Shown here: positions 1,832-59,181 of the stretch, piece by piece
Layout of the letters: each line of letters begins with the position of its first letter
Position numbering within the stretch: the first letter of the stretch is position 1
NCBI RefSeq assembly: GCF_014201715.1
Contig: NZ_JACHFD010000001.1
Location: 124,001-188,000, forward strand
DNA: 64,000 nt
From: Haloferula luteola
Lineage (GTDB): Bacteria; Verrucomicrobiota; Verrucomicrobiia; Verrucomicrobiales; Akkermansiaceae
Direction: 5' to 3'
The notes under the pieces: generated by a model
Told to the model about the DNA's origin: nothing
What the model saw: only the letters and a program-made list of their open reading frames with translations
Database searches by the model: none
Translations under genes and position numbers: made by a program

Positions 1832-1859
1832 TCCAGCTCGCCTCCAGCCCAAGACCTCT

Positions 1860-2100
1860 GCCATCCTTCGCCTACACGCCCTCTCCGCATCGCTCGCCGG
1901 ACTCGGGATTCTTCTGCAAACCGCCAACGCCTTTTGCTCCTCGGTTTTGGTGCTCCCCGTGTTTGCAGGGCCGATGCGATTCGAGGAAGTCGCGGTGAAG
2001 TCCCCTTTCGACATGCCGGCCCTCAAGGTCCCGGTGTTTCCGGAGTGGGATTTTGCCATCAGTGGCGCTGGCGTGCTCAATGCCGGATGGTCTTGCTGAA
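1860..2100 (+). pseudogene. Probable N-terminal remnant of a GH28 polygalacturonase-like gene
   Basis: One frame stays open from the GH59 stop to a TGA at 2098-2100. It encodes a hydrophobic, signal-peptide-like stretch (LSASLAGLGILLQTANA), then SPFDMPALKVPVFP and WDFAISGAGV. This resembles the opening of GH28 and related pectinases, where 'PF.MP.i..P.FP...f.ItdfGA.gDG' precedes the first beta-helix coil. Nothing of the helix follows: the frame stops inside the 3' end of the opposite-strand SMR gene. No ATG precedes the hydrophobic stretch, so the start also appears lost. The family identification rests on about 40 residues and is tentative. Confidence 0.42.
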
Positions 2101-2409: not shown

Positions 2410-2704
2410 CAGATCGAATGGTGATCGCCAGAGACATCGTGAGGCGCTCTTCGCCGGGAAAGTGTCAATGGGTTTCTCGTCATCCATTGAGCAAGCCGTT
2501 TGGAAACCACTTCAAAGCGGACTCTAAGGCGACTGGCTCGTTCGATGGAGCCTCTGGTGCATGGGCGAATCGGCAATAAAGTTGGGGAATTTCGGCCACA
2601 ACCGGATGCCTATTGAATCACGAGTCATGGTTGAAGACCCATTTGGCCCTTCAGTGAAGACATTCAGGCTCTCCCCTGCATAGGATCTGAACATGATGGC
2701 TTAC

Positions 2705-2734
2705 TTGACTGAATTTTCTTGTGATTCCTAAGAT
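2705..2734 (+). promoter_or_regulatory. Candidate sigma-70-type promoter for the sulfatase gene
   Basis: TTGACT at 2705-2710 and TAAGAT at 2729-2734 are separated by 18 nt, close to the sigma-70 consensus. They lie about 140 nt upstream of the sulfatase ATG in a locally AT-rich stretch. The rest of the 2410-2874 interval holds no convincing gene. Confidence 0.35.
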
Positions 2735-2874
2735 CTTGTCTATTCATCTTCACGATTGGCCCTTATGACATTGAAATGAGAGCATCCGCAAACACGGGTC
2801 ACCACCTCACAAAGAAGACTGACCTTGAATCCTTTATGGATCATGCGATTTGAGACCCATAGCCCTATTTCATC

Positions 2875-39664: not shown

Positions 39665-40528
39665 TCACCGACGACGGATTCGTCCAGGTGAAACCCCATG
39701 GACCCGCTTGAATGCTCTCGAGAAATGATATGGGTCTGGGAAACCCACCGCTTCCGCTGCCGCCTTCACGCTGTGGCCACGTCTCACCATGAGGTCCGCC
39801 GCATGTTGAGTTTTCAATCGGGTCAGCAACTGCAGCGGCCGCTCGGCAGAGTATCGCTTAAAAAGTCGGGCCAGATAGGCCGGATCGAGATGACACCGCG
39901 CGGCCACCTGCGCCACCGTGTGCACTTCCAGGTAATGGTCATGCATGAATGCCTTGCACCGGGCGAAGGTTTCCAGCCCTCCGGTACGGCTGCGATCCTC
40001 CCGCCAAACATCGCTGTCGATTCGCAGGAACATGAGTTCGACAATCTGATCGCCCATCTGCTGCGCCTTGCCAGGATCCAGGCGATCACACTCAATCAGT
40101 TGGTCCCATAGTTCATGGATCCACCGGGGCTCACGGGCCTGCAGCACCTCGCACTCCGCGAGTCCGCACGATCGGATTCGCGCCTTGGCGACATCACCGG
40201 TAAGATTGACGAAGTATTTGATCAGCCCACTGCCCTGCTCCGGCCTCAGGGAATAAGCCGTGCCAGGACCGTAGGCAAAGAGTGCGCCCGGCCGGAGGCT
40301 TCGTTCGATGCCCTCATGCTCCAACTTCCACCTGCCACCCACCACGAACTCGATGGTGTAGTAGTCGAACCCGGCCCGATCGATGCCATAAGATGGAGAG
40401 CAAACTTCGCGACCCGCTCCGACTAACTTGAGCCCAGGAGCGCCGGACGGATGCAGGTCGAGAAAGAGATATTTCCCCTCGATGACATCTGTCGAAATGA
40501 AGGCTGGTCGGGACGACTCAAAACTCAT
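39665..40528 (-). CDS. AraC-family regulator divergent from the L-fucose operon
   Basis: A 287-residue probable activator of the adjacent fucose operon. Residues 1-120 form a cupin-like arabinose-binding domain (FDYYTIEFVVGGRWKLEHEG, RPGALFAYGPGTAYSL). The C-terminal HTH pair runs from HTVAQVAARCHLDPAYLARLFK to KAAAEAVGFPDPYHFSRAFKRVHGVSPGRIRRR with the canonical FS.AFK..GVSP signature. The 107-nt divergent gap to the aldo-keto reductase gene contains the two-part motif described separately. Control by L-fucose or L-fuculose is inferred from position; XylS/RhaS-like AraC proteins usually activate when bound to their sugar. Confidence 0.88.
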   Translation of the reverse strand: MSFESSRPAFISTDVIEGKYLFLDLHPSGAPGLKLVGAGREVCSPSYGIDRAGFDYYTIEFVVGGRWKLEHEGIERSLRPGALFAYGPGTAYSLRPEQGSGLIKYFVNLTGDVAKARIRSCGLAECEVLQAREPRWIHELWDQLIECDRLDPGKAQQMGDQIVELMFLRIDSDVWREDRSRTGGLETFARCKAFMHDHYLEVHTVAQVAARCHLDPAYLARLFKRYSAERPLQLLTRLKTQHAADLMVRRGHSVKAAAEAVGFPDPYHFSRAFKRVHGVSPGRIRRR

Positions 40529-40542
40529 GCAGAAAGGTCTGA

Positions 40543-40577
40543 AATATCCATCGATCCGTCAATTCCCTCCATTCCCG
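40543..40577. promoter_or_regulatory. Candidate AraC operator, copy 1
   Basis: Two blocks, AAATATCCAT (40543-40552) and CCATTCCC (40570-40577), are separated by 17 nt and lie in the intergenic region between the AraC gene and the fucose operon. The same two blocks with the same 17-nt gap recur at 49665-49699, and TCC at spacer positions 4-6 is also shared. Length and bipartite form suit a dimeric AraC protein. Confidence 0.5.
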
Positions 40578-40635
40578 GGATCGCCCCAGACGCTAAGTTC
40601 ATCGTTCATGCGCCGGAAAGCGGCGCCCGAAACCC

Positions 40636-41595
40636 ATGGAATATCGCAGTCTTGGAAACACCGGTATGGAGGTCTCCTCCCTCAGCTTCGGCGCGTCGTC
40701 ACTCGGTGCTGTTTTCCACAACGTCTCGCTCGACGATTGCATCGAAACCGTCCACGCGGCCCTTGAGGGCGGGATCAACTTCATAGATGTCTCACCCGCC
40801 TACGGCGGCACGCTCGCGGAGCTCCGTCTCGGCCGCGCGCTCGAAGGCGTGCCGCGCGATTCCTACTACCTCGCTTCCAAGATCGGCAGCTACAGTGAGG
40901 CTCGTGGCGACTATGATTTCTCCCGCGCCAGCACCGAGCGCAGCGTCGAGCACAGCTTGGCACGGCTCGGCGTCGATCACCTCGATCTCATCCAGTGTCA
41001 CGACATCGAGTTCGCTGACCACGCCCAAATCGTGAACGAAACGCTGCCGGCCTTGCAGCGTCTCAAGGCGCAGGGACTCGTCCGCCACATCGGTATCACC
41101 GGACTGCCGCTCAAAGTTTTCCCAAGCATCCTCGACCGGGTCGAGCCCGGCCTCGTCGAGACCATCCTCTCGTTCTGCCACTACGAATTGAACGACACTT
41201 CGCTCGCCGATCTGATCCCCTTCTTCCAAGAAAAAGGGGTCGGCATCATCAACGCTTCGCCGACCGGGATGGGGCTGCTCACCGAGCGCGGGGCACCCGG
41301 CTGGCACCCGGCCAGTCCAGTCATCCAGGAGGGTTGCCGGAAGGCGGTCGAACATTGCAAGGCGAAGGGCGTCGATATCGTCAAGCTCGCCGTCCAGTTC
41401 TGCCTCAAGAACGCCGGGATCGCCACCACTCTGGTCGGTACGGCCCGTCCCTCAAACATCCGGGCCAATATCTCCTACGCCAACGAACCGTTGGATGAAG
41501 AACTTCTGCGCGAGGTGCTCGAGCTTCTCGCCCCCATCCACAACCACAATTTCACCCGGGGATTGCCGGAGCACCGCGACCCCATCATCGACTGA
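40636..41595 (+). CDS. Aldo-keto reductase, probable L-fucose/L-galactose-type dehydrogenase
   Basis: First gene of the fucose operon. A 319-residue aldo-keto reductase with the tetrad D51 (FIDVSPAYGG), Y56, K82 (LASKIG) and H122 (IQCHDIEF). The segment SLSFGASSLGAVF near the N-terminus and the C-terminal GTARPSNIRANISYANEP resemble D-threo-aldose 1-dehydrogenase and L-galactose dehydrogenase, which oxidise the C1 of L-fucose or L-galactose to the lactone. That chemistry fits the operon. Reduction of L-lactaldehyde, the other product of fucose breakdown, is an alternative. Confidence 0.8.
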   Translation: MEYRSLGNTGMEVSSLSFGASSLGAVFHNVSLDDCIETVHAALEGGINFIDVSPAYGGTLAELRLGRALEGVPRDSYYLASKIGSYSEARGDYDFSRASTERSVEHSLARLGVDHLDLIQCHDIEFADHAQIVNETLPALQRLKAQGLVRHIGITGLPLKVFPSILDRVEPGLVETILSFCHYELNDTSLADLIPFFQEKGVGIINASPTGMGLLTERGAPGWHPASPVIQEGCRKAVEHCKAKGVDIVKLAVQFCLKNAGIATTLVGTARPSNIRANISYANEPLDEELLREVLELLAPIHNHNFTRGLPEHRDPIID

Positions 41596-41608
41596 CCATT
41601 TTCGAGTC

Positions 41609-42259
41609 ATGCGCATCTTCGACCTCTCCCAACCCGTGACCCACCGCGGCCCGAACTGCCCGGTTCACCCACCCATCGAACTTCCCCGCATCGCCGACCA
41701 CCCGACGGATGGCTGGCGCATGGAGGTGCTTCACTTTGCTTCCCACACTGGCACCCACCTCGACGCCCCGCTGCACAAGCTCGCAAACGGTGCGAGCATC
41801 GACGCTTTCCCACTCGAAGCCTTCGCCGGACGGGCTGTCGTCGCGGACCTCGATGGCATCGAAGCCGGGCACCCGATCGGACCCGAGGACCTCGAAACCA
41901 CCCTGACTTCCGACCTTGAGGATTCCATCGTCCTCCTCAACACCGGCTGGGGCCACCGTCGGGAAAAATCCGAAGAATGGCATTACCGCAGCCCCTACCT
42001 TTCTCCCGCTGGCGCGGAATGGCTCGTCGCTAAAAAGATCCGCGCGGTCGGCATCGATCATTACTCCATCGGTGGTAGCTGCGATCCCGACAACACCCGC
42101 ACCCATGAGATCATCCTCGGTGCCGGTATCTGGGTCGTCGAAGACCTCTGTTTCCGCGATGGCTGGCGCGAGGCCGCCAGCGGCACCTTCCAAGCGCTTC
42201 CCCTGAGTTTCCCCGGCTTCTCCGGCACACCCTGCCGGGCGGTTTTCATCAACGATTAA
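41609..42259 (+). CDS. Cyclase-family metal hydrolase, possible sugar lactonase
   Basis: A 216-residue protein of the kynurenine formamidase/cyclase family (PF04199), which use a zinc or manganese centre to hydrolyse amides or lactones. The family motif HTGTHLDAP is present with upstream FDLSQPVTHRGP and downstream VGIDHYSIGG. The start MRIFDLSQPV was chosen because it begins the conserved first strand, 14 nt after the previous stop. Between a sugar dehydrogenase and an alcohol dehydrogenase, opening of an L-fucono- or L-galactonolactone is a plausible role, but this is inference. Confidence 0.78.
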   Translation: MRIFDLSQPVTHRGPNCPVHPPIELPRIADHPTDGWRMEVLHFASHTGTHLDAPLHKLANGASIDAFPLEAFAGRAVVADLDGIEAGHPIGPEDLETTLTSDLEDSIVLLNTGWGHRREKSEEWHYRSPYLSPAGAEWLVAKKIRAVGIDHYSIGGSCDPDNTRTHEIILGAGIWVVEDLCFRDGWREAASGTFQALPLSFPGFSGTPCRAVFIND

Positions 42260-42269
42260 TCCCCTTGCC

Positions 42270-43289
42270 ATGCACACTCTCACTCTTGAAGGGCCTGGCA
42301 TCCTAAAGTCGGTCGAGGCCGCGGAACCCGGCGCACCCGCCCCGGGGGAAGCCCTCGTCCGGGTCCACCGCATCGGCGTCTGCGGCACCGACATCCATGC
42401 CTATGGCGGCAAGCAACCGTTCTTCACCTACCCGCGCATTCTTGGCCACGAACTCGGTGTCGAGGTCGTGGCGACCGGCGATGGTGTCACGAACGTAAAG
42501 CCCGGCGACCGCTGCTCGCTCGAGCCCTATGTGAACTGCCAGAAGTGCATCGCCTGCCGCCGGGGCCATGGCAATTGCTGCACCTCCATGCAGGTCATCG
42601 GGGTGCATACCGATGGCGGGATGCGCGAGAGATTCGTCGTCCCCGCCCACAAGCTCCACCCCAGTGCCGAGCTCAGCTACGAACAACTTGCCCTGGTCGA
42701 ACCGCTTGGCATCGGAGCGCACGCAGTCGAACGTGTGAACCTCGAATCCGACGAATTCGCGCTGGTCATCGGTGCCGGGCCCATCGGCCTCGCCACCATG
42801 CAGTTCGCCTTGGAAAAAGGCGCGCAAGTCATCGTCCTCGACATCAACGACGGTCGCCTTGCCTTCTGCCAGAAGCAGCTTGGGGTGCCCCACGCCATCA
42901 ACGGCCTCCATGAAAACGTCCTTGAGCGCCTCGCCGAAATCACCGGCGGCGACATGCCCACCGCGGTTTTCGACGCCACCGGAAGCCCGCGCTCGATGAT
43001 GGCCTCTTTCGACTACCCCGCCCATGGGGGGCGTCTCGTCTTCGTCGGTCTCTTCCAAGGTGAAGTCACCTTCAACGACCCGAACTTCCACAAACGTGAA
43101 CTCACCCTGATGGCCAGTCGCAACGCGCACCCGGCCGATTTCCCGCGAATCATCGACCTGATCGAGTCCGGCCGCCTCGATACCAACCCATGGATCACCC
43201 ACCGTGGCGGATTTAACGACGTACCCCAACTCTTCCCCACATGGACGAACCCTGAGACGGGCGTCATCAAAGCCATGATCGAACTCTGA
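42270..43289 (+). CDS. Zinc-dependent alcohol dehydrogenase (MDR superfamily)
   Basis: A 339-residue NAD(P)-dependent dehydrogenase. Catalytic zinc ligands are in RIGVCGTDIHAYGG and LGHELGVEV; the structural zinc cysteines are in CQKCIACRRGHGNCC. The nucleotide-binding turn is VIGAGPIGL. MRTL-type sugar-acid and L-threonine dehydrogenases (for example the L-galactonate 5-dehydrogenase group) share this layout. It starts 10 nt after the cyclase-family stop. Substrate candidates are L-fuconate/L-galactonate-derived acids or 1,2-propanediol/lactaldehyde. Confidence 0.83.
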   Translation: MHTLTLEGPGILKSVEAAEPGAPAPGEALVRVHRIGVCGTDIHAYGGKQPFFTYPRILGHELGVEVVATGDGVTNVKPGDRCSLEPYVNCQKCIACRRGHGNCCTSMQVIGVHTDGGMRERFVVPAHKLHPSAELSYEQLALVEPLGIGAHAVERVNLESDEFALVIGAGPIGLATMQFALEKGAQVIVLDINDGRLAFCQKQLGVPHAINGLHENVLERLAEITGGDMPTAVFDATGSPRSMMASFDYPAHGGRLVFVGLFQGEVTFNDPNFHKRELTLMASRNAHPADFPRIIDLIESGRLDTNPWITHRGGFNDVPQLFPTWTNPETGVIKAMIEL

Positions 43290-43309
43290 AATCCAAACAT
43301 TCAAAACCC

Positions 43310-44707
43310 ATGAGCAAATACCCGAGTGACCAGGACTCCCGTGTCGTGCCCGCCAAGTTCATCTACCCCTTCATCTTTGTTACCAGCCTGTTCGCGCTAT
43401 GGGGATTCGCGAACGACATCACCAACCCTCTAGTGCGCGCGTTCAAGGAAATCTTCCTGATCAGTAACGCGCAGAGCAGCCTCGTCCAGTGGGCCTTCTA
43501 CGGCGGCTACGCGACGATGGCAATCCCCGCCGCCTTGGTCATCCGCAAGCTTTCCTACAAATGGGGCATCCTCATCGGTCTCGGCCTTTACGCCACCGGC
43601 GCGCTGCTAACCATCCCGGCGAGCATGCAGATGAACTTCAACATCTTCCTCGTCGGCTTTTACGTACTGACCTTTGGCCTGGCCTTCCTCGAAACCAGCG
43701 CCAATCCCTACATCCTCTCAATGGGTTCCCCGGAAACCGCCACCCAGCGGCTCAACCTTGCCCAGGCCTTCAACCCGATGGGCTCGCTGACCGGCATGCT
43801 CGTCGCCAGTCTGTTCATTCTTCCCAACCTCAAGGTAGCCGAGTTCCGCAGCGCTGAAATCAACGCTCACCCCGAATACAAGGAGATGCTCCCGAGCCAG
43901 GTCGACGGACTCATCTCCAAATCACTGGAAGACTTCGCGAGCGCCAACCCGGCCCCGCATCTTGAAATGGTGAAGCACGATCTGAACGTCGTGATGATCC
44001 CCTACGCCACGATCGCAATCGTCGTGCTGCTCGTGCTGGTGCTCTTCAGCTTCTCGAAAATGCCCAACACCGGCCACGAAGAGGACCCGATCCGCCTCAG
44101 CCACCTGCTCAAGCGGTTGTGGAACTTCCACTACGTTGGGGGGGTCATCGCCCAGACCTTCTACGTCGGCGCCCAGATCATGTGCTGGACCTTCATCATC
44201 CACTACGGGATGACCCTCGTCGGGCTGTCCGCAGCCCAGGCGCAGAACTACAACATCGCCGCGATGGTGATCTTCCTCACCAGCCGCTTCATCTGCACCT
44301 TTCTGCTGAAATACCTGAATCCCGGCGTGCTGCTCGGCATGCTCGCCATCGGCGGCGTCACCCTTACCCTCGGTGCAGTTCTGATCCATGGCATGCCCGG
44401 CCTCTACTGCCTCATCGGCGTGTCGGCCTGCATGTCGCTGATGTTTCCCACCATCTACAGCATCGCCTTGGACGGCCTGTCCTCGAACCACGCCAAGCTC
44501 GGCTCGGCCGGCCTGATCTTCGCCATCGTCGGTGGCGCTTTCATGCCCCGCATGCAGGGAGCGATGATCGACGGTGAGGGAATGGAGTTCCTCGGCCGCT
44601 CGCTCGAGTCCATCCGCGTCTCCTTCTTCCTTCCCGCCATCTGCTTTGTCGTCATCGCCTGCTACGGGTTCCTTTGCAACCGCATCGAACGCGTGGCCCA
44701 CCATTGA
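43310..44707 (+). CDS. fucP: L-fucose:H+ symporter
   Basis: Major-facilitator permease importing L-fucose. At 465 residues with about 12 membrane helices it is close to E. coli FucP. The first helix segment [15 protein letters not shown] has the acidic residue at the position of E. coli Asp46, and [11 protein letters not shown] carries the Glu equivalent to Glu135; both are needed for proton-coupled transport. [14 protein letters not shown] and the [15 protein letters not shown] segment are further FucP-subfamily marks. D-glucose/galactose paralogues (GluP) are similar, but the flanking fucU and fucI settle the call. Confidence 0.9.
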
Positions 44708-44723
44708 TCTTCCATCTAAAACC

Positions 44724-45161
44724 ATGCTCAAAGGCATCTCACCGCTCCTTTCCCCGGAACTCCTCGCCACGCTCCACCGCATGGGACACGGCGACGAGAT
44801 CGTCCTCGCCGACGCCCATTTCCCGGGGGAAACGTTCAGCACCCATACGCTTCGTGCCGATGGCCTTGGCATCGCGCCTCTCCTCGATGCAATTCTTCCG
44901 TTGCTGGAACTCGACGCCTATGTCCCCCAGCCTCTTCTCATGATGGCGGCGGTCGAGGGCGACACGCTCGATCCTGAAGTCGAGAAGCGCTACCGCGAAT
45001 CGATCGATCGCCACGCGCCTGACGCACCTTCCATCGCCCGCCTGGAACGCTTCGCCTTCTACGACCGCGCCAGGAAAGCCTTCGCCGTGGTCATGACCGG
45101 CGAACTCGCAAAATATGGCAACATCATCCTCAAGAAGGGCGTCACGCCCGCAACCTCCTGA
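44724..45161 (+). CDS. fucU: L-fucose mutarotase
   Basis: Interconverts alpha- and beta-L-fucopyranose before isomerisation. The 145-residue protein from [14 protein letters not shown] follows E. coli FucU almost residue by residue: [15 protein letters not shown] (catalytic His region), [55 protein letters not shown] and [13 protein letters not shown]. It sits 16 nt after fucP and 6 nt before fucI. Longer frames upstream overlap fucP and were rejected. Confidence 0.95.
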
Positions 45162-45167
45162 ACCGAC

Positions 45168-46955
45168 ATGCCGCCCACCGTTTTCACTTCGTTCCCCAAA
45201 ATCGGCATCCGCCCGACCATCGATGGTCGCCTTGGCGGCGTGCGCGAAACGCTCGATGAGCGCACGATGCAACAGGCCAAATCTGTCACCGAACTCTTCG
45301 CCAAGGAACTCCGTTACCCCGATGGCTCACCGGTCGAATGCGTGATCGCCGACACCTGCATTGGAGGCGTGAAAGAAGCCGCCGCCTGTGCCGACAAGTT
45401 CCGTAGGCACAACGTCGGCGTCTCGCTCACCGTCACGCCGTGCTGGTGCTACGGCTCGGAGACCATGGACATGGATCCACACACACCGAAGGCTGTGTGG
45501 GGCTTCAATGGCACCGAACGGCCCGGCGCGGTGTACCTCGCCGCGGTCCTCGCCGGTCACACTCAAAAGGGCCTGCCGGCCTTCGGCATCTACGGTCAGG
45601 ATGTCCAGGCGGCGAGCGACACCGAGATTCCCAGCGACGTCCGCGGAAAACTCCTCAGCTTCGCGCAGTGCGGCCTCGCCGTCGCGATCATGCGCGGCAA
45701 GTCGTACCTCTCGATGGGTGGCACCTCGATGGGCATCGCCGGCTCGGTGGTCGATCCCTCCCTGTGGGAGAAATGGTTCGGCATGCGGGTTGAAGCAATC
45801 GACATGACCGAAATTGCCGGCCGCATGCTCAAGGGACAGTTCGATCCCGCTGAATACGAGAAGGCGCTCGCCTGGGTGAAGGCGAACTGCGCCGAGGGTA
45901 AGGACTACAACTCGCCAGAATCCCGCCGCTCACGAGAACAGATCGATGCCGAGTGGGAGGACAGCGTGAAGATGACCCTCATCGCCCGCGACCTGATGGT
46001 CGGCAATCCCATTCTCGCCGAAAGGGGCTTCGGCGAGCAGGCTCTCGGACACAACGCCATTGTCGCGGGCTTCCAAGGCCAACGCCAGTGGACCGACCAT
46101 TTCCCGAATGGTGACTTCATGGAGGCGATCCTCAATTCCTCCTTCGATTGGAACGGCAAGCGCGCACCCTACATGGTTGCCACCGAAAACGACGCCCTCA
46201 ACGGCGCCGGCATGCTCTTCGGCTGGCTCCTCACCAACTCCGCCCAGATCTTCGCCGACCTCCGAACCTATTGGAGCTGCAGTGCGATCGAACAGGCCAG
46301 TGGTAAGAAGATCGACCACCCTCTTGTGGCCGATGGAATCCTCCACCTGATCAACTCCGGCCCCGCCGCGCTCGACGGCACCGGAGAGCAGACCGACTCC
46401 AACGGAAGTCCGGTGATGAAGCCGTTCTGGGACATTGCCGACGCCGAAGTCGACAAGTGCCTCCGTGCCACCACTTGGCATCCGTCGATCACCGAATATT
46501 TTCCCGGGGGAGGATGGAGCACCCGCTACCGCACAAAGGGCGGCATGCCAGCCACGATGATCCGCCTCAACCTCGTCGACGGACTCGGCCCCGCGCTCCA
46601 GATTGCCGAAGGCCATACCATCGACCTGCCCAACGACATTCACGACGCACTCGACCAGCGCACCAACCCGAGCTGGCCGACCACATGGTTCGCGCCGGTC
46701 ATCACAGGCGAAGGTGCCTTCCGTAGTACTTACGAAGTCATGAACCACTGGGGTGCCAATCACTGTGTGATGACCTGCGGCCACGTCGGCCACCTCTACC
46801 TCACGCTCGCGTCAATGCTGCGCATCCCGGTTTCCATGCACAACGTCTCCGAGAACCGTGTCTTCCGCCCGAGCGCGTGGCGTGCTTTCGGCACGGCCGA
46901 CCTCGAAGGCGCCGACTTCCGAGCCTGTGCCAACTACGGCCCGCTCTACTCCTGA
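45168..46955 (+). CDS. fucI: L-fucose isomerase
   Basis: Mn-dependent isomerase converting L-fucose to L-fuculose, and D-arabinose to D-ribulose as a side activity. At 595 residues it matches the 591-residue E. coli enzyme. Metal ligands E340 (VATENDAL), D364 (FADLRTYWS) and H532 ([13 protein letters not shown]) align with Glu337, Asp361 and His528 with a constant small offset. The N-terminal segment [11 protein letters not shown] and [11 protein letters not shown] are also conserved. It is the fifth coupled gene of the operon with 5 nt to the next start. Confidence 0.96.
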
Positions 46956-46960
46956 TCTCC

Positions 46961-47713
46961 ATGAATGACACCAAAGAGGCTCTCATCGAGCTCTCCCACG
47001 ACTTGGGTGCCGAACACCGGCAACTCGCAATCCTCGGCGAAGGCAACACCTCCGCGAGACTCGGCGAAGAAACCTTTCTCGTGAAAGCCAGCGGCAGCAG
47101 CCTTGGTACGCTTGGCGCGGGCGACCTCGTCGAGTGCCGCTTCTCCCCCTTGCTGGCCATGCTCGACAGCTCCCATCTGACGGATCAGGAAATCGAAGAT
47201 CAACTCTTCGGCAGCCGCGTCGATACCGAGGCGAGAAAGCCATCCGTCGAAGCCCTCTTCCACGCCTACTTGCTGTCGCTGCCCGGGGTCAACTTCGTCG
47301 CCCACACGCACTCCATCGCCGTCAATCAGATCCTCTGCTCGCCCCGCGCGACGGAGTTTGCCGGGAGGCGGCTGTTTCCGGATGAAATCGTCTGCTGCGG
47401 AAACGCCAGCGTCTTCATCCCCTATACCGATCCCGGCCTGAAACTCTCGCAGGTCCTCCGCGATGGCTGCACCGCCTTCACCGAAAGCCACGGCGTCCCG
47501 CCCCGCGTGATTCTGTTGGAGAACCATGGACTCATCACGCTCGGAGCGACTCCCTCCGCCGTGAAAGCCGCGATGTTCATGGCCGACAAGGCCGCGCGGA
47601 TTTTCACCGGGGCAGCCATGCTAGGAGGCCCCGTTTTCCTGTCGCCAGAGCAAGTCAATCGCATCGCCAACCGAATCGACGAGCACTACCGGCAGCGAGC
47701 CCTCAATCTTTGA
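46961..47713 (+). CDS. Class II aldolase/adducin family protein, FucA-like
   Basis: A zinc aldolase or decarboxylase expected to cleave L-fuculose-1-phosphate or a related ketose into DHAP and L-lactaldehyde. The start MNDTKEALIELSHDLG gives 250 residues, longer than the 215 of FucA. Family residues are visible: LGEGNTSAR, VKASGSSLG, catalytic Glu in PSVEALFHAY, zinc ligands in AHTHSIAVN and the later His in LENHGLITLG. The PSVEALFH pattern is closer to the RhaD-like and non-FucA branches, so phosphorylated L-fuculose as the substrate is not certain, particularly because no kinase is encoded here. Confidence 0.78.
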   Translation: MNDTKEALIELSHDLGAEHRQLAILGEGNTSARLGEETFLVKASGSSLGTLGAGDLVECRFSPLLAMLDSSHLTDQEIEDQLFGSRVDTEARKPSVEALFHAYLLSLPGVNFVAHTHSIAVNQILCSPRATEFAGRRLFPDEIVCCGNASVFIPYTDPGLKLSQVLRDGCTAFTESHGVPPRVILLENHGLITLGATPSAVKAAMFMADKAARIFTGAAMLGGPVFLSPEQVNRIANRIDEHYRQRALNL

Positions 47714-47790
47714 ACGATTCGCCGTTCGGCAACCTGACTTCTCGTCCCAAATCCTGAGCTTCCTTCCGCTTAACGCTCTCCTACTACCCC

Positions 47791-49038
47791 ATGAAATCCT
47801 GTCCAAAATTCACCTTCGGTGTCGGCGACCGTTTTGCCCATGGCGCCGTCGCCCAACTCCAGGCCTTCATCGCCGCTCGCGACCTCGGAGTGACCATCAC
47901 CCCGGTTTGGAACAAGTCGAATCGCGAGCACACGATCATCGGCTCTGAACCCCGTGACACCCGCACCGCAGCCGACGCCGCCGTTCGCGAACTCGGCTGG
48001 GACGGCGAGTATCTGCTGGACGCTGATCACATCAACCTCTCGACCGTCGACCGTTTCATCGAGCCCTGCGATTTCTTCACCCTCGATGTCGCCGAAGACA
48101 TCGGCAAGCTGGCCGCTCCTGCCGATATCGCGTCCTTCATCACCCGCCATCCAGAACTCATCGGCTCGCTCGCGATCGATGGGATCGACCGCCCTCTAGA
48201 GATCACTCGCTCAGACGTGGAGCAGGCGGCCGGCAAGTTTCTCAAGGCCACCCAACAGGCGAAACTGATCTACGAGCATATCGTTGCAGCCAAGGGACCG
48301 AATTTCGTTACCGAAGTCTCGATGGACGAAACCGACCGTCCGCAGACACCGGTCGAATTGCTCATCATCCTCGCCGCTCTCTCCGATCAGGGAGTCCCTG
48401 TCCAGACAATCGCCCCGAAATTCACCGGTCGATTCAACAAGGGGGTCGATTATGTCGGTGACCTCGCATGCTTCGAACGGGAATTCAACGACGACCTCGC
48501 GGTGATCGCCCACGCGGTGAAAACTTACGGCCTCCCGGGGGAGCTGAAGCTTTCCGTCCATTCGGGATCCGACAAATTCTCCCTCTATCCGGTGATCCGC
48601 CGCGCCCTGAACCGGACCGGCGCCGGGTTGCACATCAAGACCGCCGGCACCAACTGGCTCGAAGAAGTGATCGGCTTGGCCGAATCGGGCGACGAAGCAC
48701 TCGAACTCGCCAAGAGCATCTACTACGGCGCCCTGAAAAAGAAGGAGATGCTCTGCGAACCCTACGCCACGGTGATCGACATCGATTTCAGACAGCTCCC
48801 GGGCGTGGAGGAGGTCGCTGGCTGGAGCGGCAAACGCTTCGCATCGGCCGTGCGCCACGAACCCACACATCCTGACTACAACCCCAACGTCCGCCAACTG
48901 CTCCACGTTGGTTTCAAGATCGCCGCCCAATATGGCGACACCTACCTGGACGCCCTCAGGGCGAACCGCGACACCATTGGCAGGTGCGTGACCAACAATC
49001 TGTTCGAGCGGCACATGAAGCCTTTGTTCGTTGGCTGA
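47791..49038 (+). CDS. UxaE-type (tagaturonate epimerase family) protein
   Basis: A 415-residue protein of the family founded by Thermotoga UxaE, which epimerises D-tagaturonate and D-fructuronate. Likely metal and substrate residues are in YLLDADHINLS, FVTEVSMDETDRPQTP, APKFTGRFNKGVDY, KLSVHSGSDKFSLYP and HIKTAGTNWLEE, with a late His in QLLHVGFK. It closes the fucose operon, 77 nt after the aldolase. No uronate genes are nearby, so a keto-sugar or keto-acid derived from L-fucose/L-galactose is the more likely substrate; that is inferred from context. Confidence 0.68.
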   Translation: MKSCPKFTFGVGDRFAHGAVAQLQAFIAARDLGVTITPVWNKSNREHTIIGSEPRDTRTAADAAVRELGWDGEYLLDADHINLSTVDRFIEPCDFFTLDVAEDIGKLAAPADIASFITRHPELIGSLAIDGIDRPLEITRSDVEQAAGKFLKATQQAKLIYEHIVAAKGPNFVTEVSMDETDRPQTPVELLIILAALSDQGVPVQTIAPKFTGRFNKGVDYVGDLACFEREFNDDLAVIAHAVKTYGLPGELKLSVHSGSDKFSLYPVIRRALNRTGAGLHIKTAGTNWLEEVIGLAESGDEALELAKSIYYGALKKKEMLCEPYATVIDIDFRQLPGVEEVAGWSGKRFASAVRHEPTHPDYNPNVRQLLHVGFKIAAQYGDTYLDALRANRDTIGRCVTNNLFERHMKPLFVG

Positions 49039-49170
49039 CCGCCAGCCGTCCATGGTCAAATTCCGCCAAAGTCCTTTCGTGGTAGCCGGCACCCCGTCTC
49101 TTGGAGAAGATGTCCTGGCGCGGGTTGAAGTGAAGCCACAAGGCGATGTCGACCCATGCTTTCCGGGCGG

Positions 49171-49370
49171 TCATTGGAACCGCTCCAGCGTGGAGAAACC
49201 GAAGTCCGCGGTCTTGCCGTCGCTGGAGAAATCCTGCGCAGCGAGGCGAACCTTCGCGCCGGCGCATCCAGCGACGCCGTTGTCGGAGAGCTTCGTAACA
49301 TCAATTACCAGGCCGAAATCCTGCCACTCCACTCCATCCAGTGAGGTGGCGAATTGCAGCATTTCGATCT
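49171..49370 (-). pseudogene. C-terminal remnant of a secreted glycosidase-like gene
   Basis: On the minus strand EIEMLQFATSLDGVEW, DFGLVIDVTKLSD and DFSSDGKTADFGFSTLERFQ end in a stop at 49171. The 'tSlDG..w...G' then 'a.dG..ADF.yf' pattern resembles the concanavalin-like C-terminal domain of GH43 beta-xylosidases and similar modules. Upstream of residue EIE the frame loses protein-like character, and other frames carry stops, so only the tail of the gene seems to survive. The exact family is uncertain. Confidence 0.4.
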
Positions 49371-49664
49371 CCGCCCTCGGCCGCGTCCACGGCCTGTGCC
49401 TCGAGCGACCGGGCGAGTCAGGGGCAAACCTGCCACGAAACCACCAACCGATGATTCCAAACGAACCTGCTGCCATCCGTTCCAACGATCTGAAGGACAT
49501 CCTCGGATCGCACCGCTTCACCCGGGCCAGGACCAGCCAAGGGCCGCCACTTCATCCATCACGAGCTATCCTCTTTCTGGCCCCGCATCACCGCTTTGAT
49601 CCAACGCAGCGAGGGCCATTCCTTTGCGGCATTTCCCAACAGTCCCTGCCTGGTGAAACGTCAA

Positions 49665-49699: not shown

Positions 49700-49863
49700 T
49701 TCGATGGATGAAACTGCTGAACCGAAAGCGATTTCTCCTTGCTCCGCGGCGATGACCTCGACATCTTTTAGGTCAATAGAAGAAAGCTTTCTTGTCAGGG
49801 CGTCGTAGAATCTGGCACCACCCACCGGTTCTGTGGCCCGTCCCTTCCCTTCGTTTGAAAACC

Positions 49864-50451
49864 ATGCCCGCCCAGCATCCAGGATCCCCCTCCCTCGACG
49901 AAAACTCCGAGGAGACCTTGCAGGATCGCTTTCGAAACGAAGCCTCTTCCGCCGATCTTCTCGCGCAGGTTTACGACGAACTGCGCGGCCTCGCCGCGGC
50001 AAAGATGGCCCGGGAGTCTGCCGGACACACCCTCCAAGCGACCGCACTTGTGCACGAGGCCTGGCTGCAATTGGTCGGCACCGGAAATCGAAACTGGGAG
50101 AACCGTTCCCACTTTTTTGGCGCAGCCGCACTGGCCATGAGGCAGATCCTTGTCGATGTCGCCCGTCGCAAATCCCGCTTCAAACGCGGCGGTGATTGGG
50201 AACGAGTTCACATGGACTCCGTCGACGTATCGCAGGAATTCCATTCCGATGATCTTCTGGTCATCCATGAGGCCATCGAACGCCTCGAACAGGAGGACCC
50301 GGAGCAAGCCCACATCGTGGTGCTCAAATTCTTCGGCGGTATGACCAATGAAGAAGTCGCCCTCGCCCTAGGCATGGGGGAGCGAACCGTCTACCGCCAC
50401 TGGGTCTGCGCCAAGGCACGGCTCGGAAGATCCATTCAAAAACGCGACTAG
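49864..50451 (+). CDS. ECF sigma factor (TIGR02999-type)
   Basis: A 195-residue extracytoplasmic-function sigma factor from MPAQHPGSPSLDE. Region 2 contains LLAQVYDELRGLAAAKM, TLQATALVHEAWLQL, ENRSHFFGAAALAMRQILVDVARRKSRFKRGG, which is the distinctive 'Sig-70_X6'/TIGR02999 pattern common in Planctomycetes and Verrucomicrobia. Region 4 is VVLKFFGGMTNEEVALALGMGERTVYRHWVCAKARL. No anti-sigma factor follows; instead a Ser/Thr kinase gene starts 6 nt downstream, the usual partner of this ECF type. It may control the exported-protein genes that follow. Confidence 0.88.
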   Translation: MPAQHPGSPSLDENSEETLQDRFRNEASSADLLAQVYDELRGLAAAKMARESAGHTLQATALVHEAWLQLVGTGNRNWENRSHFFGAAALAMRQILVDVARRKSRFKRGGDWERVHMDSVDVSQEFHSDDLLVIHEAIERLEQEDPEQAHIVVLKFFGGMTNEEVALALGMGERTVYRHWVCAKARLGRSIQKRD

Positions 50452-50457
50452 CTTGTC

Positions 50458-52695
50458 GTGAGTGAGCGAAAACGACTCGAAGACGCTCTGTTCTTCGCCG
50501 CCTTGCATCTCCCCGACCCTGCCGAACGGGACGCCTTCCTCGATGCCTGCTGTCGAGAGGATCCTCTCCTCCGCGAGAGCATTGAAGAAATGATCGCCGC
50601 CAGTGAAGGCGCCGATGACATGGTCGACCGCGGATTCTCCGCGATTGCCGAGAGCCGCTCGGCGTTGCGAGAGTTGCCCGAAGCGGAAACGCTGACCCCA
50701 AACGATGAGCGAATCGGAACCCTGATCGGCCGATATCGACTTCTCCGAAGCCTCGGCAAAGGTGGCTGCGGCGATGTTTACCTAGCCGAGCAAGAAGAGC
50801 CGGTCCGTCGGGAGGTGGCGCTCAAAGTCATCAAGCTCGGCATGGATACCCGCAGCGTGATTGCACGTTTCGACGCCGAGCGGCAGGCACTCGCCATGAT
50901 GGACCACCCGAACATCGCTCGGGTTCTTGATGCCGGAGCCACCACGCTGGGCAGGCCCTATTTCGTCCTCGAACTGGTCCGCGGCACGCGCATCACCGAC
51001 TACTGTCAACAGCAGCGCTGCCACCTACGGCAACGCGTCGAATTGATCATCTGCGTCTGCCGAGCCATCCAGCATGCCCACCAAAAAGGCATCATCCATC
51101 GCGACATCAAACCATCGAATGTCCTCATCGCCGAGCAGGATGGCGTCCCTGTGCCCAAGGTCATCGACTTCGGCATCGCCAAGGCCATCGACGACCGACT
51201 CTCCGACGACACCCATCCTACCTTCCACGAACAACTCCTCGGCACCCCTGCCTACATGAGCCCGGAGCAGGCCGGAATTGGCAAGGATGATGTCGATACC
51301 CGAAGTGACATCTACAGCCTCGGCGCCTTGCTCTACGAACTCGTAACCGGTCACCCACCGCTCGGCGACTTGGTACAAGCTCGTCATGATCCCAGCGAAG
51401 TCCGCCGCATCCTTCTCCACCGCGAACCTCAGCGCCCCTCCGATCGACTCCTGCAAATCGCCGCCCAGAGTGCGAGAACTTCGGAGACGCCTCCGATCTC
51501 CGACCCTTTGAAACTCGCCTCCAAGGTCAAAGGAGAACTCGATTGGATCATCATGCGGGCTCTCGAGAAGGACCGGACAAGACGCTACGACACCGCCTTC
51601 GGCCTCGCCATCGATCTGCAGCGGTTCCTCAACCACGAGCCCATTGCTGCACGGCCGCCAAGCCGCCTCTACATCCTTCGCAAACTCATCCGGCGCAACC
51701 GTGCTGTCTTTGCTTCGACGTCCTTGATCCTGATGGCCTTGATCGCCGGTCTTTCGACCTCCACCACTCTGTATTTCAAGGCACGCAGCGCCGAGCTGAG
51801 ACAGTCGGAACTCCGCGCAACTGCCGAGTGGGCACTCCAGAAAGAAGCCAAGCTCCGCCGTGATGCGGAGACCCGCGAGAAACTCACGGAAGCAGTCGCC
51901 TTGACCCGACAGGATCACTTTTCCGAAGCCGCTCGCATCCTGAGCAGCATCCATTCCCCACCCGTCCTCCCAAGCTTGGACGCCATCACCGCCCTCCGCG
52001 ATGTCGGCCAATGGTTGGGTGGCGAACAACGTTGGCAGGAAGCCGAACGATGCTTTGAGTGGCTCTTCGAAATCGACAAGCTCGACCCGTGGCAGACCGT
52101 CAGTCTCAACTGCCAGGCTTACGGCGTTTTGCTCGTCGAGACGGACAAACAAGCTCTCTACCGTCACTTCTGCGATGTCATTGGTTCCTCCCACCAGCAG
52201 ATCACCGATCCCGACGAAGCGACCCGCCTTCTCAAGTCCTGCCTCCTCCGCCCGCTTGAGCCCGAGTTGAGGTCTCAACTCCATTCCCTGGCCATCACCT
52301 CCGAAGCCTGGAGCTCGAGCTTGCCAGTCGATGCCAGCGGCTGGCCGTCGATCGCCCCCTGCCTTTGGAAATATCGCATCGGTGACTTCGAAGCCGCCAT
52401 TTCCATCGGCCTGCAGTCCCAGCCAAGTTCCGACGAAACCATGGCACACCGGCCAACGCGCGACGCCATCATGGCCATGGCTTATCACGCCTCGGGAAAC
52501 ACCGAGGCGGCCGCCCATCACCTCAGCCTCGCCCAGCACGCAGTGAACCTGCGCTTTCAGTCCCCCCTCTCTGACGGGTCGGGATATACCGGACTATGGT
52601 ACGATTGGCTTTTTGCCAAAATCCTCGTCGACGAAGCCACCCACATGCTCGCGGAGCCAGCCAGATCGGACTCGCACAACTTCGAAGCGCACTGA
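50458..52695 (+). CDS. Membrane Ser/Thr protein kinase (PknB type)
   Basis: A 745-residue kinase with a GTG start 6 nt after the sigma factor stop. The kinase domain (about residues 85-395) is complete: GKGGCGDVYL loop, Lys in VALKVIKLG, catalytic HRDIKPSN, DFGIAKA, the GTPAYMSPEQA activation segment and a large insertion before LDWIIMRALEKDRTRRY. A membrane helix follows (FASTSLILMALIAGLSTSTTLYF), then a helical, repeat-like extracytoplasmic or cytoplasmic region resembling TPR modules (RWQEAERCFEWLFEIDKLDPW). Pairing with an ECF sigma factor suggests phosphorylation controls the sigma factor or its regulon. Confidence 0.88.
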   Translation: MSERKRLEDALFFAALHLPDPAERDAFLDACCREDPLLRESIEEMIAASEGADDMVDRGFSAIAESRSALRELPEAETLTPNDERIGTLIGRYRLLRSLGKGGCGDVYLAEQEEPVRREVALKVIKLGMDTRSVIARFDAERQALAMMDHPNIARVLDAGATTLGRPYFVLELVRGTRITDYCQQQRCHLRQRVELIICVCRAIQHAHQKGIIHRDIKPSNVLIAEQDGVPVPKVIDFGIAKAIDDRLSDDTHPTFHEQLLGTPAYMSPEQAGIGKDDVDTRSDIYSLGALLYELVTGHPPLGDLVQARHDPSEVRRILLHREPQRPSDRLLQIAAQSARTSETPPISDPLKLASKVKGELDWIIMRALEKDRTRRYDTAFGLAIDLQRFLNHEPIAARPPSRLYILRKLIRRNRAVFASTSLILMALIAGLSTSTTLYFKARSAELRQSELRATAEWALQKEAKLRRDAETREKLTEAVALTRQDHFSEAARILSSIHSPPVLPSLDAITALRDVGQWLGGEQRWQEAERCFEWLFEIDKLDPWQTVSLNCQAYGVLLVETDKQALYRHFCDVIGSSHQQITDPDEATRLLKSCLLRPLEPELRSQLHSLAITSEAWSSSLPVDASGWPSIAPCLWKYRIGDFEAAISIGLQSQPSSDETMAHRPTRDAIMAMAYHASGNTEAAAHHLSLAQHAVNLRFQSPLSDGSGYTGLWYDWLFAKILVDEATHMLAEPARSDSHNFEAH

Positions 52696-53839: not shown

Positions 53840-56800
53840 ATGTACCGATTTCTCTTTCTCGCCACCGCCGCCGTTTGCTCGATCCCCACGCTGACCAGAG
53901 CCTACGAACTGCCCACACTCCCCCCCATCCCGGACATTCCTGCCCCCCAGCCTGCAGGCTCCGTGGCGATGGGCGACCCCGCCACCTTCCCAGAGGTTCA
54001 AATGGATTTCTCCATTCAGGAAGGCACCTTCGAGCCCACCTGGAACTCGATCGCCTCCCATCTGCCCATGGATGCCGCCATGCTCCGTGAAAAGAAATTT
54101 GGCATCTGGGTTCACTACGGCCCTCAGGCAGCAGGAGAAAGTGGCGACTGGTATGCCCAGCACATGTACCAGCAAGGATCGACCCCTTACAACAACCACC
54201 TCGCCGAATACGGCCACCCGACTGAGCAGGGCTACAAGGACTTCCTCAACGATTGGGACCCCTCGGCCCTCGACCCCGAGGCGCTGACCCAAATCTACTA
54301 CGACGCTGGCGCTCGCTTCCTCCTCGTCCAAGGCGTCCACCACGACAACTTCGACAACTGGGATTCCCAATACAATCCGTGGAATGCCGTCCACCTTGGC
54401 CCGCGACGCGACACCATGGCCGAATGGCGAGATGCCTGCCGCAACCGAGACATGGGGTATGGAGTCACCTTCCACCACGAATACGCCTGGTGGTTCTTCC
54501 AGCCAGCCTTTCTCTCCGACACTTCCGGCGACCTCGCAGGGGTCCCCTATGATGCCGTCACCTCCACGGATGGAACCGGCACCTGGTGGGAAAACTGGGA
54601 CCCGCGCCTCCTCTACAACATCGACCTCCACGAATACGCCGGCATCTCCACTCCAAATCAAGGATACTGGAATCCCGGTCAGGGCATCTTCACCAACCAC
54701 CTCGACTACGCCCACTGGTACGCCACCTGGTGGGCCCTGCGGATGATCGACGTCATCGAGAAATACGACCCCGACTTCATCTACACCGACGGCACCTCAA
54801 GCCAGCCCTTCAATGGCTACGGGACCGGGACCGGCTACAAGTGCGATGCCATGCAACGGGTCATCGCCCACTTGGAGAACCGCGCCATCGAACGCCACGG
54901 CGAACCGAATCGATTCGCCATGGTCAAGTTCCACTCCGGTGACCGCATCACCACCACCTTCGAAGGCGGATTCGCCGAAGGCATCAAACGCGATCAACCT
55001 TGGATCGGTGAAATCCCCGTCGGCGATTGGTTCTACGCTCCCGGATTCACCTACGACCCCTCCATGGTCATCCGTTACGTTCTCGAGTGCGTCTCGCGCG
55101 ATGGCGCCGCCGCCGTCTGCATCTCTCAACTCCCCAATGGCGGGCTCGATTCCGGAAGCCAAGACATGTTGGCAGCGGTCGGCGATTGGATGGATATCAA
55201 CGGAGCTGGCATCTATGGTAGCCGCGCCTGGGATATTTATCGGGAGGGCGATCTCACACTCCCCGGAGGACGCCTCGGCGCCACTCAGGCCAACTATGCC
55301 TTCACCAGCTCGGACTTCCGCTACACCGTCGGTGAAGATGGCTACCTCTACGCCTATTGCATGACCGTTCCCGAACCGGGCGAAACCCTCTTTCTGCCGT
55401 CGCTCGGCTCTGAGGATGGCAACCTCGCCTCGCCCATCACCACAGTCGAATTGTTGGGCAGTGACTCGCCGGTCACGTGGACTCAAACCGCCACCGACCT
55501 CAAGATTTCCTGCCCCGCTGCCATGCCCTATCAGTCATCGGTCGCCTTCAAAATTGGTCCTCCGGCCATCATCAAGACCACCGCACCGACTCAACTTACC
55601 TCGAGCGAGACGCCCTCAGGAATTCTCCTCGAATGGTATTCCGCTGAGTCGGACGTCACCTTCTCCGTCAAGCGAGCAAGCTCGTCTCAGGGGCCCTACA
55701 CGGAACTCGTCAGTGGTCTCACCGAAGCATCCTACGTTGACACGACGCTTCCTGCGAACACTCCCGCCTACTACGTCGTCACCGCCACCAAGGACGACAA
55801 TACCTCTCAGGATTCCGACCCCACCATCGCTCTCCTCTCGGAGTCCAGCACTTGGGTTTCCGAAGACATCGGCACTGTCGGCGCCCTCGGAAGCCACGCC
55901 GAGTCAACCGACTATCTCCTCGTCAAAGGTGCGGGAACCGACATCTGGTATGCCGCCGATGGATTCCACTACGTCCACCAACCACTTGTCGGCAATGGCA
56001 GCATCACCGCCAAAGTCGAAAGCATGGATAACACCGGCGGCTGGGCCAAGGCGGGCCTGATGATCCGGGAAACATCGGACGCCTCCTCGAAGTACGCCAT
56101 CGCCTTCATTTCACCCTCCAACGGAACCGCTCTCCAAATGCGCTCCACCACCGGTGGCGGGGCCACGGGTGTGGCCAACACCACCGGCCTCGAAGCGCCG
56201 GTTTGGCTCCGCCTCACTCGCATCGGTTCCATCATCAATGCCGAGCAATCCAGCGATGGCACGACGTGGAGTTTGCTGGGAACCACCACCGTCTCCATGA
56301 CCGAAGAGGTCTCGATCGGCTTGACCGTCTGCAGCACCTCCAGCGGCACCCTCAACGAAGTCCTCTTCAGCCAAGTCTCCATCTCGGAAGTCGACGCCTC
56401 CGCGGGCATCACCTGGCAATCACCCGTCACCGTCACCTCCGATTCGGTGATCGACCTGACAGGGACCCTCGTGCATGCAGGCAACTTCCGCGAATCGGGC
56501 GATGTCACCGTCGATCTGGGTTCGGAATCGATCAACTTCCAGAACCGCGGAGCCAGCAATGCCTTCACCGCCCTCCTCACTGGGGAAGAAGCCAAAGTCG
56601 TCTCCGGAGCTGGTGGTAAGCAAACCAACACCAGCCTGTTCGATGCCACTGGCACCACGGTTTCCGCTGAGTTCGAATCCGTGCTGGATGGATCCGCATG
56701 GGAAAACAGCGACCCCGGTCCCTTTCCGGGAGCTACCGACATGGACCTCCGTCTCACCGGAGCTGGCGGAGCACCTCTCACTGAAGGCACCCTCTATCAA

Positions 56801-57388
56801 ATTCAACTCTTCTACTCCGACGACCGCAGTAGCAGCGCGACCCGTGGCGAACTTTTCCACGATGGTCTGGGACACCAGAGCGAAGCCTTCCTCGCAAGTG
56901 CCAGCGCCTCCGTCATCGGCACTTTCACTGCCGACGCCTCAGGCTATCAGGACGTCTTCGCACAGAACACCACAGGCGAAGGCAACTACCCCGTGGGATT
57001 CAATGCCTACGTCCTCCGCGAAGTCGGCGTCGCAGATTCCGATGACGACGGCATCGACGATGCCTGGGAGATCTCCCACTTCGGCAACCTCGACTCCTCT
57101 GGCGAAGACGACAACGATCACGACGGAACCGACAACCTCACCGAATTCCGACTGGGGCTCGATCCCAATGACGCTCACTCCCGATTTGCCGCCATCGTTG
57201 CAGCGGACTCCACCCTCGAATGGCCCAGCACCACCGGCGTCACCTTCACCGTCCAACGCAGCACCACGCTCGAAGGTGGGTCTTGGACCGACATCGCCAC
57301 CATTTCCGGAGCTGCCAGTACCACTCGCTTCACGGACCCCAACCCGCCTGCTGCTTCGGCATTCTATCGCATTCGCCTCGATCCATGA
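53840..57388 (+). CDS. Multidomain GH29 alpha-L-fucosidase
   Basis: A secreted retaining alpha-L-fucosidase of 1182 residues. After the signal peptide (MYRFLFLATAAVCSIPTLTRA) the GH29 barrel spans about 50-570: FGIWVHYGPQ, GVHHDNFDNWDS, FHHEYAWW and the nucleophile Asp317 in PDFIYTDG. Then follow an FN3-like domain (575-670), a LamG/DUF1349-like domain (about 675-855, ITAKVESMDNTGGWAKAGLMIRE), the domain shared with the PEP-CTERM protein (about 860-1060, with DDRSSSATRG and GTFTADASGYQD), a calcium-loop region with DSDDDGIDDAWE and DNDHDGTDN (TSP3/dockerin-like) and a C-terminal beta domain. Its TGA overlaps the next ATG. The acid/base residue was not assigned. Confidence 0.9.
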   Translation: MYRFLFLATAAVCSIPTLTRAYELPTLPPIPDIPAPQPAGSVAMGDPATFPEVQMDFSIQEGTFEPTWNSIASHLPMDAAMLREKKFGIWVHYGPQAAGESGDWYAQHMYQQGSTPYNNHLAEYGHPTEQGYKDFLNDWDPSALDPEALTQIYYDAGARFLLVQGVHHDNFDNWDSQYNPWNAVHLGPRRDTMAEWRDACRNRDMGYGVTFHHEYAWWFFQPAFLSDTSGDLAGVPYDAVTSTDGTGTWWENWDPRLLYNIDLHEYAGISTPNQGYWNPGQGIFTNHLDYAHWYATWWALRMIDVIEKYDPDFIYTDGTSSQPFNGYGTGTGYKCDAMQRVIAHLENRAIERHGEPNRFAMVKFHSGDRITTTFEGGFAEGIKRDQPWIGEIPVGDWFYAPGFTYDPSMVIRYVLECVSRDGAAAVCISQLPNGGLDSGSQDMLAAVGDWMDINGAGIYGSRAWDIYREGDLTLPGGRLGATQANYAFTSSDFRYTVGEDGYLYAYCMTVPEPGETLFLPSLGSEDGNLASPITTVELLGSDSPVTWTQTATDLKISCPAAMPYQSSVAFKIGPPAIIKTTAPTQLTSSETPSGILLEWYSAESDVTFSVKRASSSQGPYTELVSGLTEASYVDTTLPANTPAYYVVTATKDDNTSQDSDPTIALLSESSTWVSEDIGTVGALGSHAESTDYLLVKGAGTDIWYAADGFHYVHQPLVGNGSITAKVESMDNTGGWAKAGLMIRETSDASSKYAIAFISPSNGTALQMRSTTGGGATGVANTTGLEAPVWLRLTRIGSIINAEQSSDGTTWSLLGTTTVSMTEEVSIGLTVCSTSSGTLNEVLFSQVSISEVDASAGITWQSPVTVTSDSVIDLTGTLVHAGNFRESGDVTVDLGSESINFQNRGASNAFTALLTGEEAKVVSGAGGKQTNTSLFDATGTTVSAEFESVLDGSAWENSDPGPFPGATDMDLRLTGAGGAPLTEGTLYQIQLFYSDDRSSSATRGELFHDGLGHQSEAFLASASASVIGTFTADASGYQDVFAQNTTGEGNYPVGFNAYVLREVGVADSDDDGIDDAWEISHFGNLDSSGEDDNDHDGTDNLTEFRLGLDPNDAHSRFAAIVAADSTLEWPSTTGVTFTVQRSTTLEGGSWTDIATISGAASTTRFTDPNPPAASAFYRIRLDP

Positions 57389-59145: not shown

Positions 59146-59181
59146 CCGGCACCTCCGCCGTCATCATCCTTCCCATTCCCA

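Follow-up and report, generated by a model that had tools for sequence, protein, structure and literature searches.

An L-fucose operon of Haloferula luteola that may also encode an L-galactose oxidation route

The operon described here lies in a window of 64,000 nucleotides from the verrucomicrobial bacterium Haloferula luteola, which corresponds to positions 124001-188000 of contig C1 in a source genome of 4.9 Mb (84 contigs, 95.5% complete). Eight genes on the + strand occupy window positions 40636-49038, the first of them starting at C1:164636, and are separated by intergenic gaps of 5-20 bp, the exception being 77 bp 5′ of the last gene. They encode, in order, an aldo-keto reductase (AKR), a cyclase-family metal hydrolase, a zinc alcohol dehydrogenase (ZnADH), FucP, FucU, FucI, a class II aldolase and a UxaE-family epimerase, and a gene for an AraC-family regulator (39665..40528, - strand; PF12833, 72.5 bits) diverges from them upstream. 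An earlier note on this DNA had read the locus as an L-fucose operon without a kinase, and family scans of all eight products likewise place no kinase among them. Promoter and terminator scans of 40400-49400 returned matches at chance level.

The oxidative enzymes that the note had recognised in this operon belong to a described module. On sequence, the AKR (40636..41595, +; Aldo_ket_red, 162 bits) and the ZnADH (42270..43289, +; PF00107 and PF08240) are orthologous to LguA and LguD, being 79% identical over 316 amino acids and 74% identical over 337 amino acids, respectively, to the corresponding proteins of genome G306. The G306 locus has the order AraC-AKR-dehydratase-reductase-ZnADH-aldolase-kinase, matching lguR-A-B-C-D-E-F as given for Luteolibacter sp. 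LG18 in the available text of its description (PMC12632266). Its LguD N-terminus, MKTLVLREPG, is exactly the one published there, the LguA N-terminus differs by one residue (METRK in the paper, MEYRK at locus L153), and we regard G306 as LG18 itself or a very close relative. Among solved structures, the closest relative of the window AKR is PDB 9w6y, titled ‘L-galactose dehydrogenase’ (567 bits), the aligned part of which is identical to the G306 AKR over its first 102 residues; four further sequences of the same name follow at 315-330 bits and all others score below 100 bits. According to the portions of the LG18 paper available (PMC12632266, J Bacteriol 2025), LguA acts on L-galactose and L-glucose, with a kcat/Km 40-fold higher for L-galactose, and shows no activity on L-fucose, whilst LguD uses L-gluconate and L-galactonate and was employed by the authors for the conversion of L-galactonate to D-tagaturonate. 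By orthology, the window enzymes would be an L-galactose 1-dehydrogenase and an L-galactonate 5-dehydrogenase that forms D-tagaturonate.

The intervening cyclase-family hydrolase (41609..42259, +; PF04199, 103 bits) can be placed by its neighbours. In nine of 12 relatives that carry an LguA-type AKR at ≥74% identity, a cyclase homolog (62-66%) adjoins the AKR gene, and in the three of these nine for which gene lists were made (L151, L155 and L158) LguB- or LguC-like genes come after; FucI was found in none of the 12 stretches. Because of this adjacency the cyclase is assigned to the L-galactose module, where it would most simply be the lactonase, a candidate L-galactonolactonase. The lactonase step is unnamed in the accessible text of the LG18 paper, in which the word stem occurs only for substrate preparation (PMC12632266).

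An alternative would make L-fucose itself the substrate of the oxidative enzymes, with the AKR forming L-fuconolactone, the cyclase L-fuconate, and ZnADH and UxaE carrying the product onward, such that no kinase is needed; in a weaker form, the earlier note had suggested a dehydrogenase branch running in parallel. The genes concerned do share one operon with FucP, FucU and FucI, L-fucose is 6-deoxy-L-galactose, and, of the 80 best UxaE relatives, 8 have, close to AKR, ZnADH and UxaE, homologs that read as COG3618-like amidohydrolases, a family that includes L-fuconolactonases. However, LguA, to which the window AKR is so similar, is inactive on L-fucose in the available account (PMC12632266), FucI and the aldolase would be left without explanation, and the enolase superfamily of the genome yielded no recognisable fuconate dehydratase. 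On this last point the note, which had seen no such enzyme in the operon, holds for the genome as far as that superfamily goes: none of its three MR_MLE_C matches is FucD-like. Two of them read as enolase and MenC from sequence and neighbours. The third (L196, 952-2148, on contig C6) is probably exported, is encoded 3′ of a gene whose product carries a CxxCH motif, has no NCBIfam match at E<=1e-20 and, at E<=1e-15, matches only two solved sequences, both titled ‘Mandelate racemase/muconate lactonizing protein’. Oxidation of L-fucose by these genes is accordingly considered improbable, and a parallel dehydrogenase branch for this sugar is not supported.

The last gene of the operon (47791..49038, +) encodes a UxaE-family protein of 415 amino acids, as the note had proposed, matching PF16257 with 185 bits (cut-off 27) although the first ~79 model positions remain unmatched. 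It aligns with the Cohnella UxaE 6il9 (E=1.7e-28), with which it has the core motifs HSGSDKFS and KTAGTNWLE in common. Neighbourhoods were compared for the best 80 of at least 586 relatives confirmed in a scan of genome contigs, with a gene counted as present at ≥150 bits; as some loci lie on short contigs, all counts are lower bounds. An AKR stands beside at least 33 of the 80, a ZnADH beside at least 24 and both beside at least 21, and among the loci with both dehydrogenases an LguG-like epimerase occurs in 16/21 and a COG3618-like amidohydrolase in 8/21. UxaC accompanies at least 11 of the 80, in no case together with an AKR. Homologs of FucI, FucU, the aldolase and the cyclase were each found at none of these loci, FucP at two, and an RbsD/FucU-family gene of another type at ten. 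The substrates of UxaE are given as D-tagaturonate and D-fructuronate, either of which UxaC yields from hexuronates, in the available part of PMC6353982. The dehydrogenase and UxaC contexts would thus each supply a known UxaE substrate, which supports a role for the window protein as the tagaturonate epimerase of an L-galactose arm, and it is probably a D-tagaturonate/D-fructuronate epimerase.

These neighbourhoods also bear on a different role for UxaE, in which it would act as a ketose 4-epimerase turning L-fuculose into L-rhamnulose, to be drained by a distant RhaB and a RhaD-short-chain dehydrogenase (SDR) fusion without any fuculokinase. L-Fuculose and L-rhamnulose are C4 epimers, RhaB and the RhaD-SDR fusion are both encoded in the genome, and the UxaE gene does sit inside the fuc operon. 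Yet FucI lies beside none of the 80 best UxaE relatives, whose recurrent neighbours instead make known UxaE substrates, those known so far being D-series uronates, and the operon's own fucI-associated aldolase would stand idle. Such an epimerisation is regarded as highly improbable. Two further observations concern the family more widely. A 639-amino acid protein on contig C3 of the same genome (L120, 8629-10548) aligns with no more of the UxaE profile than its C-terminal portion, at 32 bits, and is too divergent for use. At acidobacterial loci such as L063, L072 and L073, cluster reading places UxaE relatives in the company of UxaC, of a LarA-like protein or of an SDR, and this SDR might be a fructuronate reductase.

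The middle of the operon holds the genes of L-fucose uptake and isomerisation. The note had called FucP, FucU and FucI unambiguous, which stands for the mutarotase FucU (44724..45161, +; NF011949, 212 bits, cut-off 141) and the isomerase FucI (45168..46955, +; NF008220, 1008 bits, cut-off 775; TIGR01089, 988 bits, cut-off 850). The L-fucose/H+ symporter FucP (43310..44707, +) exceeds TIGR00885 (486 bits, cut-off 280) but falls short of the stricter fucP model NF007524 (227 bits, cut-off 427), so that all three components of the canonical pathway are present, FucP by one of two models. The aldolase (46961..47713, +; PF00596, 79 bits) is indeed atypical, lying far under the cut-off of all listed FucA and RhaD models, and contains the motifs PSVE, HTHS and NHG, which we take to be catalytic. 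A search of 239 genomes of the order found ten relatives besides the window's own, at 45-72% identity over nearly full length, and in eight of these ten genomes FucI lies within about 9 kb. In one of them (G207) the order is aldolase, RhaB-type kinase, FucI, another gene and FucU; an island of G237 holds aldolase, RhaD-SDR, genes that read as LutABC-like, kinase, FucP and FucI. In the other two genomes (G235 and G221) the aldolase gene is followed by a XylB-type kinase gene, with FucI absent from the examined stretch. The operon enzyme is, on these grounds, a probable L-fuculose-1-phosphate aldolase. At loci L125 (9777-12049) and L126 (9488-11711) the aldolase family precedes a XylB-type kinase, with no FucI in the examined region, and a different ketose-1-phosphate route possibly operates there.

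The kinase that would supply this substrate is probably encoded elsewhere, one of the two options that the note had left open. A genome-wide search for fucK identified four FGGY kinase genes, comprising one ribulokinase, two XylB-like genes and one of RhaB/FucK type. The last, at C1:43,366-44,835, shares a contig with the operon, whose first gene starts about 120 kb further downstream. Its best PDB match is the L-fuculose kinase 4c23 (296 bits), closely followed by the rhamnulokinase 2cgj (284 bits), and it remains under both curated cut-offs (TIGR02627, 429 against 528; TIGR02628, 109 against 471). Homologs of this kinase are clustered with fucI in nine genomes: six of genus g10 have the arrangement DeoR-kinase-FucI (kinase 54-58% identical), two (G207 and G327) have the kinase and FucI genes side by side, and in G237 FucP stands between them (kinases of these three 40-45%). 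In G342 the two genes are about 10 kb apart. In a sample of 195 genomes of the family, in which FucI was called at E<=1e-100 and the RhaB-type kinase at E<=1e-40, FucI occurs in 88, of which 53 lie outside genus g2 and 35 within it. The kinase is present in 52 of the 53 (the exception being G321) and in none of the 35, and the single g2 genome examined, G010, has a canonical FucK (TIGR02628, 575 bits) near FucI. PMC3245297 reports that RhaB is difficult to tell from FucK and that the E. coli rhamnulokinase accepts L-fuculose. The simplest reading of the C1 enzyme is that of a dual rhamnulo/fuculokinase. A missing RhaA, which would have left the kinase free for L-fucose, was considered and rejected, since TIGR02635 gave no match but PF06134 found the protein.

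Cleavage of unphosphorylated L-fuculose by the unusual aldolase would remove the need for this kinase altogether. The enzyme fits no FucA model well, and in five genus mates no FGGY kinase lies near the aldolase. Against this, an FGGY kinase gene stands directly 3′ of the aldolase relatives in G207, G235 and G221, which suggests that the aldolase substrate is phosphorylated, and direct cleavage seems very unlikely. With a RhaB/FucK-type candidate on the same contig and homologs of it beside fucI, the other option of the note, processing of L-fuculose by a different route, found no support, and neither a kinase-free nor an oxidative L-fucose route is upheld here.

The explanation that we favour, and hold to be probable, is that two known routes, for L-fucose and L-galactose, are joined in one operon, the kinase of the former lying some 120 kb away; the parts are ordinary and their assembly is unusual. 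FucP, FucU, FucI and the aldolase most likely constitute the L-fucose arm, and AKR, cyclase, ZnADH and UxaE most likely the L-galactose arm, given the LguA/LguD orthology, the cyclase-AKR adjacency and the contexts of UxaE. In the reactions that we infer for this organism, FucP would import L-fucose and probably also L-galactose (6-hydroxy-L-fucose), giving two related sugars a shared uptake, and FucU, potentially serving both, would accelerate anomer exchange. FucI would then convert L-fucose to L-fuculose, the RhaB/FucK-type kinase would phosphorylate this to L-fuculose-1-phosphate and the aldolase would split the product into dihydroxyacetone phosphate and L-lactaldehyde, the latter being oxidised by the dehydrogenase half of a RhaD-SDR fusion encoded beside the kinase. 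In the other arm, the AKR would convert L-galactose to the lactone, the PF04199 hydrolase would open this to L-galactonate, the ZnADH would oxidise the latter to D-tagaturonate and UxaE would epimerise it to D-fructuronate, which could reach 2-keto-3-deoxygluconate via mannonate and UxuA, a gene for which is present on contig C11. Any co-regulation is similarly presumed.

A number of observations weigh against this two-route explanation. The direct neighbours of the kinase gene encode a DeoR regulator and the RhaD-SDR fusion, and RhaA is present on contig C22 (PF06134), so that rhamnose is the obvious job of the kinase. In addition, 56 kinase-bearing genomes of the family sample have no FucI. 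In a midpoint-rooted FastTree phylogeny of the window genome's kinase and 16 further rows (one G237 gene being counted twice), it groups with the kinases of five relatives, three of which lie beside RhaD-SDR, whilst the six fucI-linked kinases of g10 form the sister group and the other fucI-linked kinases an outer group. The end of the L-galactose arm is also incomplete. No Mannitol_dh_C protein was found in the source genome (controls positive in 7/14). An LguC-type tagaturonate reductase and a UxuB from this family were accordingly not encountered and the UxaE arm is left unclosed, and no fructuronate-reducing enzyme was identified, though a whole-genome search for an SDR-type reductase was not made. 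Other hexuronate genes were not recognised at the UxuA locus on C11. One GD_AH_C dehydratase on contig C2, 38% identical to LguB, could instead indicate an altronate branch; on the galactarate dehydratase model it scores 365 bits, against 274 for LguB and a cut-off of 731. As to the cyclase, no homolog was seen in the examined stretches of the remaining three of the 12 relatives (G207, G204 and G306), the last including the lgu locus itself, and it is put forward as a candidate lactonase.

The surroundings of the operon favour a supply of L-fucose. Three consecutive genes for GH29 alpha-L-fucosidases lie 5-12 kb 3′ of it (53840-60840), followed by GH43 and GH97 genes, the whole group occupying 53.8-64 kb of the window, and these fucosidases are likely the source of the operon's sugar. 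The AraC regulator is 32-38% identical to LguR-type and 29-39% to fucI-linked AraC regulators and falls outside both groups in a FastTree phylogeny of 26 relatives without an outgroup, from which it could not be said whether it is of the fucose or galactose type. This is compatible with an operon devoted to L-galactose, or perhaps D-arabinose, alone, in which FucP, FucU, FucI and the aldolase handle these sugars and L-fucose is incidental; FucI enzymes do accept both D-arabinose and L-galactose. However, FucI and FucU exceed L-fucose-specific curated cut-offs (FucP one of two), the fucosidase genes are close by, and relatives of the aldolase accompany fucI and were seen at none of the 12 lguA-type loci, which together make an operon without an L-fucose function unlikely. 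Elsewhere in the window, positions 2-4413 hold a GH59-family gene, truncated at the window boundary, and a gene for a sulfatase, and directly 3′ of the operon, at 49792-52695, lie genes for an extracytoplasmic function (ECF) sigma factor and a Ser/Thr protein kinase.

Joining the two routes sets the operon apart from the systems to which it can be compared. With the Lgu pathway of LG18, as far as the available text describes it (PMC12632266), it has in common an LguA-type AKR, an LguD-type ZnADH, a divergent AraC-family regulator and D-tagaturonate as predicted intermediate; in contrast, it lacks LguB, LguC, LguE and LguF, with UxaE in their stead, and includes the PF04199 hydrolase and attached L-fucose genes. 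The source genome showed no member of the family of LguC, the tagaturonate reductase of the LG18 pathway, and for its altronate dehydratase, LguB, it offers the 38% identical GD_AH_C protein on C2. From the canonical FucP/FucU/FucI/FucK/FucA pathway it retains the first three, whereas its kinase lies outside the operon and is of mixed RhaB/FucK type and its aldolase is divergent. Its UxaE shares family PF16257 and core motifs with the enzymes of Thermotoga and Cohnella (6il9), but is a 415-amino acid protein without the first ~79 model positions and stands in a setting of L-sugar oxidation. Haloferula rosea and other genomes (L006, L007) have AKR, ZnADH and UxaE close together, yet their AKR and ZnADH are only 41-49% and 48-55% identical to those of the window, and no homolog of FucI, FucU or the aldolase lies nearby. 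No other locus examined unites the LguA/LguD module, UxaE and the genes for L-fucose in a single operon. G225 (L171) comes nearest: there, a UxaE-ZnADH-AKR cluster with the other AKR type has FucI at a distance of about 5 kb. A literature search, judged on titles and the starts of abstracts, recognised no description of a combined L-fucose/L-galactose operon.

A seemingly incomplete L-fucose operon can thus be read as two pathways with a common transporter and mutarotase, and cautions that dehydrogenases in a fucose operon need not be L-fucose enzymes. The cyclase supplies a candidate for the lactonase step that goes unnamed in the available LG18 account. This reading also predicts a second ending for bacterial L-galactose oxidation, in which UxaE would replace LguC and LguB.

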